A stretch of DNA of 64,000 nucleotides. Source: Rubrivirga marina. GTDB taxonomy: Bacteria; Bacteroidota; Rhodothermia; Rhodothermales; Rubricoccaceae. Position 1 is the first letter of the stretch. Every line of letters starts with the position of its first letter. A model generated the notes under the pieces. The model saw only the letters and a list, made by a program, of their open reading frames with translations, searched no databases and had not been told where the DNA came from. The position numbers and the translations under genes are program-made. Positions 42,993 to 47,456 of the stretch are shown piece by piece. The DNA is taken from contig NZ_MQWD01000001.1 of assembly GCF_002283365.1 (NCBI RefSeq), forward strand, positions 869,694 through 933,693, written 5' to 3'.

Positions 42993-43709
42993 TCAGCCCT
43001 CGTCGTGGAGGTCGTCGGTGAGGCTGTCGAGCGGCGCGTCGTAGCGCTCCTGGAAGAGGACGAACGCCACGCCGTCGGCGACCTGCCGGAGCGGCTGGTG
43101 GGCCTCGACGACCTCCCGGTACGTCTCGTAGCAGGCGAGCGCCGCCTCGCCGGCCTCGCGGTCGGCGTCGGAGAACGGGACGACGGCGCCGATCGCGTCG
43201 CGCGGCGAGCCCCGCAGCCCGGCCGGGTTGTCCTCGATCTCGCCCTCGATGAGCGTGAAGAAGGCCAGCCGCCGCGGGCTCCGCCCGGCCATCTCGTCGC
43301 ACGCCGCGCAGTACGCCCGTTTCACGACGGCGTGCGCCACGAGATGGTCCGGGTGGACGCTGTTGCCGTGCGGCGCGTACGTCACGACGACGTCGGGGGC
43401 GACGGCCTCGATCTTCCGCTCGACCACGTGCTCGAGGTCGCGCGGGTCGAGGTCGGCCAGGCCGCCGTCGGGGAAGTCGAGGATCGTCAGCGTCCCGCCG
43501 AGGGCCTCGACGGCGCAGGCCGTCTCCTTCGCGCGGACCTCGCCCATCTCGTCGACGCTCAGCCCGAGGTCGTGGCGCACCTTCGTCGCCCCGCCCTTGG
43601 TGAGGGTCAGGACATGAACGTCGTGGCCCTCGCGGGTCTGGCGGGCGATGGCAGGGCCAGGCCCGAACGACTCGTCGTCGGGGTGGGGGAAGACGTAGAG
43701 GAGAGTCAC
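42993..43709 (-). CDS. PIG-L/LmbE-family zinc deacetylase
   Basis: A 238-residue N-acetylglucosaminyl-type deacetylase. Zinc ligands are in VFPHPDDESFG at the N-terminus and NSVHPDHLVAHAV near residue 125. Close relatives include BshB of bacillithiol synthesis and mycothiol/lincomycin enzymes; the exact substrate is not evident. It starts with GTG after a strongly pyrimidine-rich leader (CCCTTCCCCTCTCCC). It lies downstream of the B12 operon on the same strand, 84 bp away. Confidence 0.87.
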   Translation of the reverse strand: MTLLYVFPHPDDESFGPGPAIARQTREGHDVHVLTLTKGGATKVRHDLGLSVDEMGEVRAKETACAVEALGGTLTILDFPDGGLADLDPRDLEHVVERKIEAVAPDVVVTYAPHGNSVHPDHLVAHAVVKRAYCAACDEMAGRSPRRLAFFTLIEGEIEDNPAGLRGSPRDAIGAVVPFSDADREAGEAALACYETYREVVEAHQPLRQVADGVAFVLFQERYDAPLDSLTDDLHDEG

Positions 43710-43793: not shown

Positions 43794-44060
43794 CTACCTC
43801 CACACCCCGTCTCCCCCCGACCTCCGTTCCTCCGGTTGACTGGCGCCGGCCTCCGGCTCGTCCGCCTCGGTCACGACCTCGTGGAAGACCGTCTGCCCGG
43901 TCCGCAGCATCCGGCGGACGTACGGGTGGCAGAGGGCGCACTTCCGTCCGAAGAGGGCGTGCTCCTGGAGCTCGGCGACGGTCTCGGCGCCCGTCGCGTC
44001 GGCGACCTCCGCCAGTTCGGCGAAGGGCTTCCCGAAACAGAGGCAGCGGTCGATGGTCAC
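43794..44060 (-). CDS. BFD-like (2Fe-2S)-binding small protein
   Basis: An 88-residue protein with the four-cysteine pattern of bacterioferritin-associated-ferredoxin-like domains: RCLCFGKPF near the start and KCALCHPYVRRML near residue 42. The helical middle (AELAEVADATGAETVAELQ) fits. A charged tail of about 25 residues follows. It starts with GTG 1 bp after the stop of the propeller lipoprotein gene, so it belongs to the B12 uptake operon. A redox role for imported corrinoid, or iron-sulphur sensing, is conceivable but unproven. Confidence 0.8.
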   Translation of the reverse strand: MTIDRCLCFGKPFAELAEVADATGAETVAELQEHALFGRKCALCHPYVRRMLRTGQTVFHEVVTEADEPEAGASQPEERRSGGDGVWR

Positions 44061-44061
44061 G

Positions 44062-45162
44062 CTAAAGGCCGGCGACGAGGTCAGCCGGACCGAACGCCAC
44101 GTCGGTCGGGATGACGCCGGCGTCGAACTGGTCGATCAGGGACCCCGTCCGGTCGTGGACTGTGACCGTGCCGGGCGAGCCGTAGCCGTCGGCCGCGTCG
44201 AGCCGGCCGAGGTAGAACCGCTCGGCGTCGTCGTCGAAGGCGACGGCCGAGATTGGCGGGCCGCCCGGCGTGATCGTCCGGGCCTCGGCGTTGTCGTCCG
44301 TGTCGAACGCGACGATCCGGTCGCCGAGCGACACGTAGACCTCGTCGAGCGTGCGGCTCTGCGCAGCGTCCGTCCCGAGCGCGCCGCCGCCGACCTGGGC
44401 GTCGAGCGCGAACCGCGCGACCTCCTCGCCCGAGGCCCCGTCGAGGACCACCACGAGCCCGTCGGTCTGGCCGACCACGTTGAAGTCGGCGTCGTAGAGC
44501 GTCCGGCCGGTGCAGACGACCCAGACCTCGCCGTCGTCGTCGGCGAGGGCGAAGCGGGGGCCGTCGCAGCCCTCGACCGTGATCGTCTCGACGACCGACC
44601 GGCCCGAGGCGCTCACGACCGAGATCGTGTTGCCGGCCCCGAACGTCCCATCATCCGCGCTGAAGTTGGTCACGTACACCCGGTCGCCGACGGCGGCCGC
44701 GCCCTCGGGGTTCTGGCCGACCGCGATCGGCGTGCCGGCCGTGTTTGAGGCGAGGTCGACGGGCGTGACGGTCGCGTCGTAGAGGTTCGTCACGAACGCC
44801 GTCCGCCCGACGACGGCCCAGGCGCGGGGCGTGCCGACCTCGACCTCGTCGGTGACGGCGCCCGTGCTCGGGTCGAGCACGGCAATCCGCCCGCTTCCCG
44901 TCGAGAACGAGTCGCTGAAGTTGAGGAACACGTAGAGCCGGCCGTCCACGACCTCGACGTTCTGGACGAGCCCGCCGAGCGTGGTCACGGCGTCGGGCTC
45001 GGCCGCGCCGGTCATCGGGTCGTAGCGCGAGAGCGAGCCGCTCTCGTCGGAGAAGATGCCCTGGTTGCCGACGAGGACGGTGCCGGTCTCGGGCACGTCC
45101 TCGGCCGAGTCGCAGCCGGTCGCGACGAGGAGCAGGAGGAGGGAGACGGAGAGGATGCGCAT
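44062..45162 (-). CDS. Surface lipoprotein with YncE-like beta-propeller, BtuG-like candidate
   Basis: A 366-residue lipoprotein (signal LLLLLVATGCDS) whose mature part is a repeated beta-propeller: blades are visible as ETGTVLVGNQG, LYVFLNFS, RTAFVTNLYDATVTPVDLAS, DRVYVTNFSADD, EVWVVCTGRTLYD and DEVYVSLGDRIVAFDT. In Bacteroides, the lipoprotein BtuG is a seven-bladed propeller that captures vitamin B12 and hands it to BtuB. This gene sits 15 bp after a riboswitch-controlled BtuB-like receptor, the same partnership, so a B12-capture role is the best guess. The pyrimidine-rich leader (CCTCCCCCTTCCCC) is notable. Confidence 0.8.
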   Translation of the reverse strand: MRILSVSLLLLLVATGCDSAEDVPETGTVLVGNQGIFSDESGSLSRYDPMTGAAEPDAVTTLGGLVQNVEVVDGRLYVFLNFSDSFSTGSGRIAVLDPSTGAVTDEVEVGTPRAWAVVGRTAFVTNLYDATVTPVDLASNTAGTPIAVGQNPEGAAAVGDRVYVTNFSADDGTFGAGNTISVVSASGRSVVETITVEGCDGPRFALADDDGEVWVVCTGRTLYDADFNVVGQTDGLVVVLDGASGEEVARFALDAQVGGGALGTDAAQSRTLDEVYVSLGDRIVAFDTDDNAEARTITPGGPPISAVAFDDDAERFYLGRLDAADGYGSPGTVTVHDRTGSLIDQFDAGVIPTDVAFGPADLVAGL

Positions 45163-45177
45163 GGGGAAGGGGGAGGG

Positions 45178-47052
45178 TTAACGAGCCCGGACCGTGAGTC
45201 GGAGCCGGGCGTGCCGCGGAGGCATGACGTGGGAGCGGACGATCTCATAGCGGGCGTCCAGGAGGTTGTCGAGGTCGAGGCCGAGCGTGACCTCGGCCGG
45301 ACCGAGCGCGCGTGCGACGGCCGCGTGCGCCCCGACGACGAGGTGGGCCGGGAGCGGCTGCGTCCCGCCCCGCGTCGTCGGGCGCGCGCCGAGGGCCTGG
45401 GCGTCGAGGCCGAGCCGGAGGCCGCTGACGCGGAGCCCGCCCCACGCCTTGGCCGCCCACCGAGGCACGTAGCGGACGGGCGCGTCGGCGTCGAGGTCGC
45501 GGGCGTCCGTGACCGTGGCGACCGCCCCGCCGTCGACCAGCGCCGTCGCGCCGCCGAGGCGGACGAGGTGGGCTGCACGGGCCGACACCTCGGCTCCGAG
45601 CGTCCGCGTGCGGGCGACGTTCTCGGGGGCCCAGTAGCCGAGCCCGGTCGGCGCCCAGACGATCTGGTCGCGGGCCGTCGTGGCGAACGCCGTCGCCTCG
45701 ATCCGAGCGCGGCCTCCCCCGACGACGGCGCCGAGGTCGGCGCTCCAGGCGGTTTCCGGGAGGAGGTCGGGGTTGCCGCCGGGGGCCCAGAATCGGTCGT
45801 TGAGCGTCGGCATCCGGAAGGCGCGGGCGACGCTCGCCTTGAGGGAGACGAGAGGGGAGAGGCGAGCGTTGGCGCCGAGTTGGGGCGCCAGCCCGAGTCG
45901 GGCCTCGCCGCCCGCCGGCGTGTGGAGGTCGGCGCGGAGCGCGGGGAACAGGACGACGGCACCGAGCACGTGCCGTCCCGCCAGGCCGAGGCCGAGCATC
46001 CGGTCCTCGGCCGTCTCGGCGAGGCTCGGGTGGGAGGCGCGGCCGAGGGCGCCGGTGGCCTCCGCCGTCCAGGTGCCTGCGCCGCGCGTGTTCGTGGCTC
46101 GGAGGGCGAATGCGGCGGTCGTCGTCCGCCCCGTCTCGTCGATGGCGTCGGCCCGGTCGCCGGCCGGGAACGGCGACGCGTAGCGGAGCTCGGCCCGCTG
46201 GGCGTGGGCCGTCGCCTCGAGGCGGACGGCAGGGGCGTCGTGGGCGGCGTGGCCGGAGAGCCGAAGCTGGCGGTCCCACTGGCGGGCCCCGACGAGCGCG
46301 CCGTCGGAGGGCGATCCGCCCAGGCCGCGCTCGGCGTCGGCGGCCCAGAGGGCGAGGCCGCCGCGTGTCGGGCCGCGCTCGGCCCGGAGGGCGCCGTAGG
46401 CCGTCGCCCGCCGGCTGTCCCACCCCTGGCGCGGGACGACCGGCTGCCCGACGCGGCCGAGATCAGCCACGCCGTAGTCGCCATCGGACTGCCCGGCCTC
46501 GACGGCGGCGACGGCGGCGAGCGCCCCGCGCTGTCCGCCCGCGAGGCCCGACACGCGCCGCTCGCCCCACGCCCCCACCTCGGTCGTCGCGCGGAGCCCG
46601 TCGGTCACCGGGCGGAGATGGACCACGCCGCCCAGCGCGCTCGACCCGTACAACCCCGAGGCCGGCCCGCTCAGCACCTCGACCGCCTCGAGGAGCGCCG
46701 TCGGCAGCAGCGTCAGGTCGATCTGGCCGAGCGCCGGGTCGGTGAGGGGCTGGCCGTCGAGGAGGACGAGTGCCTGTGGCGCGCTCGCCCCGCGGATCGA
46801 GAGGCTCGACAGTCCGCTCGGCCCGTAGCGCCGGACGTGGACGGGCGCGCGGGCCTGGAGGAGCTCCGCCAGATCGGGCGCGGCCTGGAGCGCCTCGCCG
46901 TCGAGGACCGTCACGCGCGCGGGCGCCTCGCGTGTCGCGACGGCCTCACGGGCGGCCGTCACGGTGACCTCGCCGAGCGTCGAGTCGGACGCGGCGGGCT
47001 GACTGGCAGCGGCCAGCGGGGCGAGCAGGAGGAGGAGGGCGCGGAGGCGCAT
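45178..47052 (-). CDS. btuB: BtuB-like TonB-dependent receptor for cobalamin
   Basis: A 624-residue outer-membrane receptor. A Sec signal (LLLLLAPLAAASQ) is followed by a TonB-box-like strand (LGEVTVTAAREA) and the plug domain (VTVLDGEALQAAPDLAELL, LSIRGASAPQALVLLDGQPL, VEVLSGPASGLYGSSALGG). The rest is a beta barrel. It ends LTVRAR, without the terminal Phe frequent in outer-membrane barrels. The cobalamin riboswitch and terminator directly upstream assign the substrate as cobalamin or a related corrinoid. Two genes follow in the operon (propeller lipoprotein, BFD-like protein). The ATG immediately follows the T-tract of the terminator. Confidence 0.92.
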   Translation of the reverse strand: MRLRALLLLLAPLAAASQPAASDSTLGEVTVTAAREAVATREAPARVTVLDGEALQAAPDLAELLQARAPVHVRRYGPSGLSSLSIRGASAPQALVLLDGQPLTDPALGQIDLTLLPTALLEAVEVLSGPASGLYGSSALGGVVHLRPVTDGLRATTEVGAWGERRVSGLAGGQRGALAAVAAVEAGQSDGDYGVADLGRVGQPVVPRQGWDSRRATAYGALRAERGPTRGGLALWAADAERGLGGSPSDGALVGARQWDRQLRLSGHAAHDAPAVRLEATAHAQRAELRYASPFPAGDRADAIDETGRTTTAAFALRATNTRGAGTWTAEATGALGRASHPSLAETAEDRMLGLGLAGRHVLGAVVLFPALRADLHTPAGGEARLGLAPQLGANARLSPLVSLKASVARAFRMPTLNDRFWAPGGNPDLLPETAWSADLGAVVGGGRARIEATAFATTARDQIVWAPTGLGYWAPENVARTRTLGAEVSARAAHLVRLGGATALVDGGAVATVTDARDLDADAPVRYVPRWAAKAWGGLRVSGLRLGLDAQALGARPTTRGGTQPLPAHLVVGAHAAVARALGPAEVTLGLDLDNLLDARYEIVRSHVMPPRHARLRLTVRAR

Positions 47053-47084
47053 CAAAAAACCCCGCGCCTCAAGCAGGCACGGGG
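47053..47084 (-). terminator. Riboswitch-controlled intrinsic terminator abutting the btuB start
   Basis: Minus strand: stem CCCCGTGCCT / AGGCGCGGGG with a GCTTG loop, then T6 and G, directly before the ATG. It is the likely off-switch of the B12 riboswitch; being next to the start codon it could block translation as well. Confidence 0.88.
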
Positions 47085-47154
47085 TCACGCGCGGGCCCAC
47101 GCAGTCGGGCCGACGTCGAGCTCACCGCGCCTCTGGTCCCGGAGGCGGTGGGGG

Positions 47155-47385
47155 GCGTCGCGCTCGGGCAGGTCTCCTGGCTCACGGCCCGGCCGACCGG
47201 CGGTGCCGGTCAGCGTGCGTCAGCTCCGCCCCGGCCTTCCCCTCACGAGAGAGTGGCAGCGGGCGTCACGGCCGACGGCGGGCCGCCTACAGTTGCGGGT
47301 ACAGCTCCGGACTTGCCGCGAACGGCGCACCGGATTCCCTTTTCATCCGCGCGGGGACGCGCGGAACCTGAGGCGGGGCGAAAGA
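47155..47385 (-). promoter_or_regulatory. Cobalamin riboswitch
   Basis: On the minus strand the conserved blocks occur in order: ATGAAAAGGGAATCCGGTG, AAGTCCGGAGCTGTACCCGC, AACTGTAGGCGG, and the B12 box GAGCCAGGAGACCTGCC at the 3' side. This is a full-length AdoCbl-type aptamer. The switch would repress btuB when cobalamin is bound. Aptamer and terminator are separated by about 70 nt. Boundaries are approximate. Confidence 0.95.
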
Positions 47386-47456
47386 GCAGGCCTCCAAGGT
47401 AGAGGCACGACGGGCTGGGCGTGACCCGGCCGCTCATCTTCACGCGCCGGCCCCCT

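Follow-up and report, generated by a model that had tools for sequence, protein, structure and literature searches.

Organization of the locus

The stretch of DNA analysed here (the window) comprises 64,000 nucleotides of contig NZ_MQWD01000001.1 of Rubrivirga marina. It contains a locus on the minus strand in which a cobalamin (B12) riboswitch precedes the genes for a TonB-dependent receptor (BtuB), a predicted beta-propeller lipoprotein (BtuG) and a small four-cysteine protein resembling the ferredoxin Bfd (BFD-like, here also BFD; Table 1). The positions of these four elements, given in an original prediction from the DNA letters, proved exact to the base. Its distances of 15 bp between btuB and btuG and 1 bp between btuG and the BFD-like gene were reproduced by open reading frame analysis, the latter junction reading TAG-C-GTG, and the BFD-like gene very likely belongs to the btuB-btuG transcription unit. 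A hairpin in the leader and a PIG-L gene downstream were both absent from that prediction. The locus as a whole is best explained as a riboswitch-controlled BtuB-BtuG operon with a corrinoid-reducing ferredoxin (rough probability 0.8). It is a real BtuB-BtuG uptake operon; provisionally, the ferredoxin gene and a class-wide choice of anchors for BtuG are new.

Table 1. Features of the B12 locus in the window, and two loci of family f3 for comparison.
Feature	Position	Strand	Evidence or remark
Cobalamin riboswitch aptamer (RF00174), full length	47150..47386	-	cmscan, alignment with conserved B12 box
Probable expression platform: 12-pair GC-rich hairpin and U6 tract	47058..47086	-	terminator scan, fold z-score
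btuB, TonB-dependent B12 receptor, 624 aa, ATG start	45178..47052	-	plug and barrel, TIGR01779, family profile
btuG, seven-bladed beta-propeller, predicted lipoprotein, 366 aa	44062..45162	-	profile, model, structural alignment, lipobox
bfd-like, small cytosolic [2Fe-2S]-type protein (predicted), 88 aa, CxC...CxxC, GTG start	43794..44060	-	PF04324, model, invariant Cys
PIG-L family deacetylase gene, 84 bp downstream of the BFD-like gene	42993..43709	-	PF02585 (E 9e-31), synteny
Riboswitch-btuB-BFD, BtuG not detected (family f3)	L099 9052-11562; L100 7178-9672	-; +	receptor without lid, or unrecognised lid

Riboswitch and leader

The match to RF00174 (cmscan) covers the full length of the model (positions 1-189) with 74.2 bits against a gathering cut-off of 31.5 (E 2e-16), which bears out the cobalamin riboswitch predicted before the TonB receptor. 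The B12 box GAGCCAGGAGACCUGCC and the other conserved blocks are intact in the alignment, and this is the sole cobalamin riboswitch detected in the genome. Between the aptamer and btuB, the terminator scan found a hairpin of 12 pairs followed by six U, ending at the btuB ATG. Its fold has a z-score of -3.8, and none of 200 shuffled sequences was equally stable. The layout is probably that of a terminator-type expression platform; since the hairpin covers a GAGG sequence similar to a ribosome site, it could act on translation. Judged from this layout, the riboswitch would leave the transcript open when cobalamin is scarce, and with adenosylcobalamin bound the hairpin before btuB would form and either stop transcription or hide the ribosome site.

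Receptor and propeller

The domain search identified plug and barrel domains in the receptor. Its best NCBIfam match is TIGR01779 ('TonB-B12', E 6.7e-33), with 114.1 bits against the curated equivalog cut-off of 599.7, so that it falls outside the E. coli-type BtuB as defined there. In a search with a family profile built from 18 receptors, BtuB2, BtuB3 and BtuB1 of Bacteroides gave E values between 5e-85 and 1e-73, and E. coli BtuB one of 2e-42. E. coli BtuB is likewise a TonB-dependent plug-barrel receptor with a B12 riboswitch, but by sequence the receptor is clearly nearer to the BtuG-partnered BtuB of Bacteroides; E. coli has no BtuG (PMC6143338). In extracellular loop 8 (EL8) of the Bacteroides receptors, an aromatic residue (Tyr538 of BtuB3, Phe in BtuB2, Trp in BtuB1) adjoins the bound B12 and has been proposed to expel it from BtuG (PMC10404256). 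The W in the receptor motif GYWAPEN aligns with the aromatic in GFYSP/GFFSP of Bacteroides BtuB, and a pattern search of 16 relatives recovered a motif with an aromatic at this position in 10. The aromatic of GFYSP/GFFSP is presumed to be the EL8 residue, and the W of the receptor its counterpart.

With the propeller as a single sequence, only weak matches were obtained (DUF5074, E 3.7e-5, below cut-off; BtuG1 chain, 8e-8). Using a profile made from 19 class members, the top PDB matches were BtuG structures (E 2e-47 to 2e-35), while E. coli YncE was matched at 1e-10. BtuG entries were also placed first by Foldseek with the AlphaFold model (mean predicted local distance difference test, pLDDT, 90.3). 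In VIA-align 2, the top 11 rows were all BtuG (Z 34-37, root mean square deviation 2.3-2.6 over approximately 305 residues), the next row having a Z of 33.4. The superposition proposed in the original prediction hence supports a BtuG-like propeller, and the likening of the receptor-propeller pair to BtuB-BtuG agrees with the sequence profile, the fold and the kinship of the receptor. BtuK1 (PDB 9s6c), another beta-propeller deposited as a B12-binding protein, scores far below BtuG (profile E 9e-8, Foldseek 2e-12).

BtuG2 grips its ligand with the loop Asn54-Thr64 (PMC10404256). The propeller loop N33-S43 (NQGIFSDESGS) aligns with this loop, read as NEGNFQYSNAT, and the gripping-loop motif NxGxF is widespread among the propellers of the class. 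Pro112-Arg113 and Tyr327 (Tyr335 in BtuG2) are kept in the pocket. The fold and part of the corrinoid site thus agree with BtuG, and the propeller is predicted to bind B12. A generic YncE-type protein binding a non-corrinoid ligand is very improbable: the single-sequence Pfam match is weak and some pocket aromatics differ, but the BtuG profile match (E ~1e-47) stands against 1e-10 for YncE, BtuG entries lead the structural ranking, and the partnership with a BtuB-like receptor under a cobalamin riboswitch is constant. The propeller has a lipobox (ATG-C17) followed by D18 and further acidic residues, C17 and D18 being invariant in 21 lipoprotein-type homologues, and is therefore a putative surface lipoprotein with a predicted export signal.

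The system of Bacteroides thetaiotaomicron (PMC6143338, PMC10404256) has in common with the locus the cobalamin riboswitch, btuB beside btuG, the BtuG fold, the signal for a surface lipoprotein (a predicted one here), the gripping loop NxGxF and an aromatic residue in the presumed EL8 of BtuB. It differs in that identity is approximately 20%, the lid aromatics are not the same, one locus was found here, a BFD-like gene is part of the operon, relatives use BtuG sorted by the type IX secretion system (T9SS), and B12 binding is a prediction in the present case. Altogether, it is nearly certain that the locus encodes a B12 uptake system of the BtuB-BtuG type. By analogy to the Bacteroides homologues, BtuG would capture the corrinoid as a surface lipoprotein and sit as a lid on BtuB, which would pass it through the outer membrane using TonB energy.

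Distribution and gene order in the class

Among 146 genomes of the GTDB class, 133 have a cobalamin riboswitch and 85 a propeller (E < 1e-6); riboswitch positions are those among the matches listed. Family f15 was scored together with the order of the window. In the other orders, all 30 propellers have a cobalamin riboswitch no more than 4 kb away. In the order of the window, riboswitch and propeller are about 2 kb apart on every contig for which both are listed, which corresponds to the length of btuB. Named hosts of BtuB-BtuG loci include Rubrivirga, Rhodothermus and Salinivenus. The nearest locus is 88-91% identical and stems from a Rubrivirga metagenome-assembled genome (MAG), which makes Rubrivirga the closest kin of the window and fits the Rhodothermia-like host originally proposed. 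The original description limited BtuG to Bacteroidetes, with competition in the dense gut offered as one reason (PMC6143338). Its occurrence under cobalamin riboswitches in environmental Rhodothermia, Rhodothermus and Salinivenus among them, points to an older and more general strategy. The claim that the system extends well beyond gut bacteria stands, with the caveat that the host group is a sister lineage and not a distant one: NCBI places Rubrivirga in the Rhodothermota and Balneolaceae in the Balneolota, GTDB the class within the Bacteroidota. No paper joining Rhodothermus with BtuG was found in the literature searched (subscription papers and preprints were outside its scope).

The BFD-like gene was found in 54 genomes of the order of the window and f15. 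In 46 of these, the btuB locus harbours it: it adjoins the propeller gene or shares its locus in 43 and follows btuB directly in three f3 genomes, for which the propeller search of class genomes detected no btuG. Of the 31 named, independent loci gathered with the BFD alignment as query, 27 have btuG directly before the BFD gene or just upstream in the same locus. The gap was measured in 23 loci and lies between -4 and +65 bp in 21, with an overlap in four. This gene order, far beyond chance, was found by the kind of survey that the original prediction had suggested; it is conserved outside the genome of the window and not confined to it.

The other orders differ. None of their 64 BFD-bearing genomes has the gene near a propeller gene, btuB or riboswitch (among the matches listed), and in 15 of 15 inspected genomes it is situated between dcd (dCTP deaminase) and rsmE. 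Loci of this arrangement (L101, L108-L121; Balneolaceae-type and other families) often show an overlap of the BFD gene with one or both neighbours. Since BFD is single-copy wherever found, the btuB-locus and dcd-rsmE genes are probably orthologues in two settings. With 46 of 54 genomes on one side and 0 of 64 on the other, BFD is a conserved operon member in the order of the window and not a B12-only gene. The proposal of a new operon member is therefore upheld for this order, but the family is not specific to the operon.

Two surface anchors of BtuG

A C-terminal T9SS sorting domain is present in 27 of the 85 usable propellers of the class, nine of them above the cut-off of TIGR04183 and 18 more recognised by a hidden Markov model built from those nine. 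The propellers of this group carry an ordinary signal peptide but lack a lipobox. Of the others, nearly all have the lipobox Cys; the exceptions in this tally, made by eye and regular expression and subject to start-site and pattern errors, are truncated or fragmentary sequences. Propeller lengths are bimodal in the class, and SprA, the T9SS translocon, is encoded in 145 of 146 genomes. BtuG of this class thus appears, from its sequences, to use two mutually exclusive anchors, the lipid (as in the window) or the T9SS sorting domain. A tree of the propeller domain alone implies four anchor changes (bootstrap range 4-4), at least two of which are forced by well-supported branches. Sorting-domain BtuG also occurs in the family of the window, and one of the genomes concerned (G111) belongs to the genus of the window. 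In G135 the gene order is sorting-domain BtuG, BFD, lipoprotein BtuG. T9SS-type BtuG loci are L063 (7698-9053, +), L091 (10423-13130, -; both anchor forms flank BFD), L068, L072, L075, L079, L082, L084, L085, L095 and L096.

In the pedal-bin model, the lipid-anchored N-terminal linker of BtuG is the hinge (PMC10404256). A T9SS-sorted BtuG bears on this model, as the attachment of the lid would be C-terminal or would depend on the receptor alone. No report of T9SS-sorted BtuG was found in the literature searched; the sole paper found there joining type IX secretion and BtuG concerns, by title and abstract, the BAM complex. The combined proposition that BFD is a dedicated [2Fe-2S] corrinoid donor and that BtuG lids repeatedly switched between lipid and T9SS anchoring, so that the lid works without a lipid hinge, is rather unlikely to hold in both its parts.

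Role of the BFD-like protein

The BFD-like protein matches PF04324 (Fer2_BFD) with 22.0 bits (E 2e-4), below the gathering cut-off of 26. Its model (pLDDT 84.5) has the Bfd fold, and its four best PDB matches are Bfd of Pseudomonas aeruginosa, none of them reaching E 0.001, as expected for a short chain. Each of the 58 relatives compared has all four cysteines. The four-cysteine protein of the (2Fe-2S) type named in the original prediction is consistent with these results, the cluster itself being predicted, and the gene product is, as modelled, a putative cytosolic [2Fe-2S] ferredoxin of the Bfd fold. It shares CxC...CxxC, the fold and the lack of a signal peptide with Bfd, but differs from it in a C-terminal tail, the location in a B12 operon, the family motif CxLCxPYxxxMLxTG and the lack of a bacterioferritin (Bfr) in the genome and the class. 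A true Bfd, which frees iron from bacterioferritin, is highly improbable, even though P. aeruginosa Bfd has the closest fold. Haem-type Bfr (TIGR00754) was found in 0 of 146 class genomes, with E. coli and Caulobacter matched as positive controls. A Bfr partnership was rejected on these grounds, and the protein is named BFD-like for this reason.

To our knowledge, the natural electron donor for corrinoid reduction is undefined in most bacteria. Of the possible B12-related tasks of the ferredoxin, which is probably co-translated with BtuG, the most likely is to supply electrons to cob(III)alamin or cob(II)alamin just after import. The corrinoid would thereby be reduced or decyanated ahead of its adenosylation, which would be carried out by the PduO-type adenosyltransferase (ATR). 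The latter is encoded in 142 of 146 class genomes, including that of the window. This corrinoid-redox role is tentative. It is a B12-related mechanism worth testing, with the conserved ferredoxin as a testable candidate electron donor in corrinoid assimilation, and a general redox task is at least as likely. In the literature searched, nothing linking Bfd with B12 was found by title or abstract.

Three observations weigh against a B12 operon with a corrinoid-reducing ferredoxin. The lid aromatics Trp194, Trp272 and Tyr316 of BtuG2 are not conserved in the propeller. BFD is located away from btuB in f9, part of f5 and all 64 genomes of other orders, which also use B12. Families f8 and f12 have ATR and the methionine synthase MetH yet no BFD, so BFD is not obligatory for adenosylation. 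An obligatory role was accordingly discarded, ATR being present in the 142 genomes whether or not BFD is.

There is an even chance that BFD has a general task without relation to B12, in Fe-S or iron housekeeping, and that its gene became trapped within the btuB operon in an ancestor of the order; the B12 uptake system would be unaffected by this reading. One BFD per genome across the class, its place between dcd and rsmE in the 15 inspected genomes and away from btuB and riboswitch in the other orders, its neighbourhood with PIG-L and phoBR, away from btuBG, in Roseithermus (f9), and the use of B12 without BFD in f8 and f12 argue for this. On the other hand, about a dozen families have retained BFD at the btuB locus, its junctions being tight or overlapping. 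It still follows btuB in f3 where btuG was not found, and has a separate link to metH outside the class.

The last point concerns G349, one of eight genomes outside the class with a BFD-like gene, in which metH is directly followed by BFD, with a CobA/CobO-type adenosyltransferase gene approximately 1.2 kb further on. This order would suit a protein serving only the reductive reactivation of MetH. That role is quite unlikely, as BFD is located beside btuG in eight f7 genomes without the MetH activation domain, while about 20 genomes of f8 and f12 have MetH and no BFD, a phylogenetic profile by which it was rejected.

Neighbouring genes and further loci

In L186 (3624-9357, +), outside the class, metH, BFD, a kinase-like, a deaminase-like and a CobA/CobO-type adenosyltransferase gene are arranged in a row; a cobalamin riboswitch was not found in this locus. 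A BFD with a short insertion is encoded in L143 (6971-7210, +) in a MAG labelled Sericytochromatia, with no recognised B12 genes around it; the gene may have been transferred, or the bin may be mislabelled.

The PIG-L gene downstream of the operon is a neighbour that probably is not part of the B12 system. In several families PIG-L comes after BFD and is itself often followed by phoB-phoR (the window, L067, L071, L088-L090, L097, L126-L141). In Roseithermus PIG-L and BFD remain together, away from btuBG.

In f7, the locus of BFD can also encode DUF6580 and a binding protein of the BtuF-like kind. Genes for DUF6580 membrane proteins, candidate inner-membrane B12 importers, lie in or near cobalamin-riboswitch loci (L071 9764-11272, -; L081 11818-12429, +; G021:C7, G064:C5, G019:C3) and are absent from genomes of the family of the window. 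The only strong FecCD-type permease of the genome analysed here (G000:C1:2768357-2769292, -), a candidate BtuC, is encoded far from the B12 operon.

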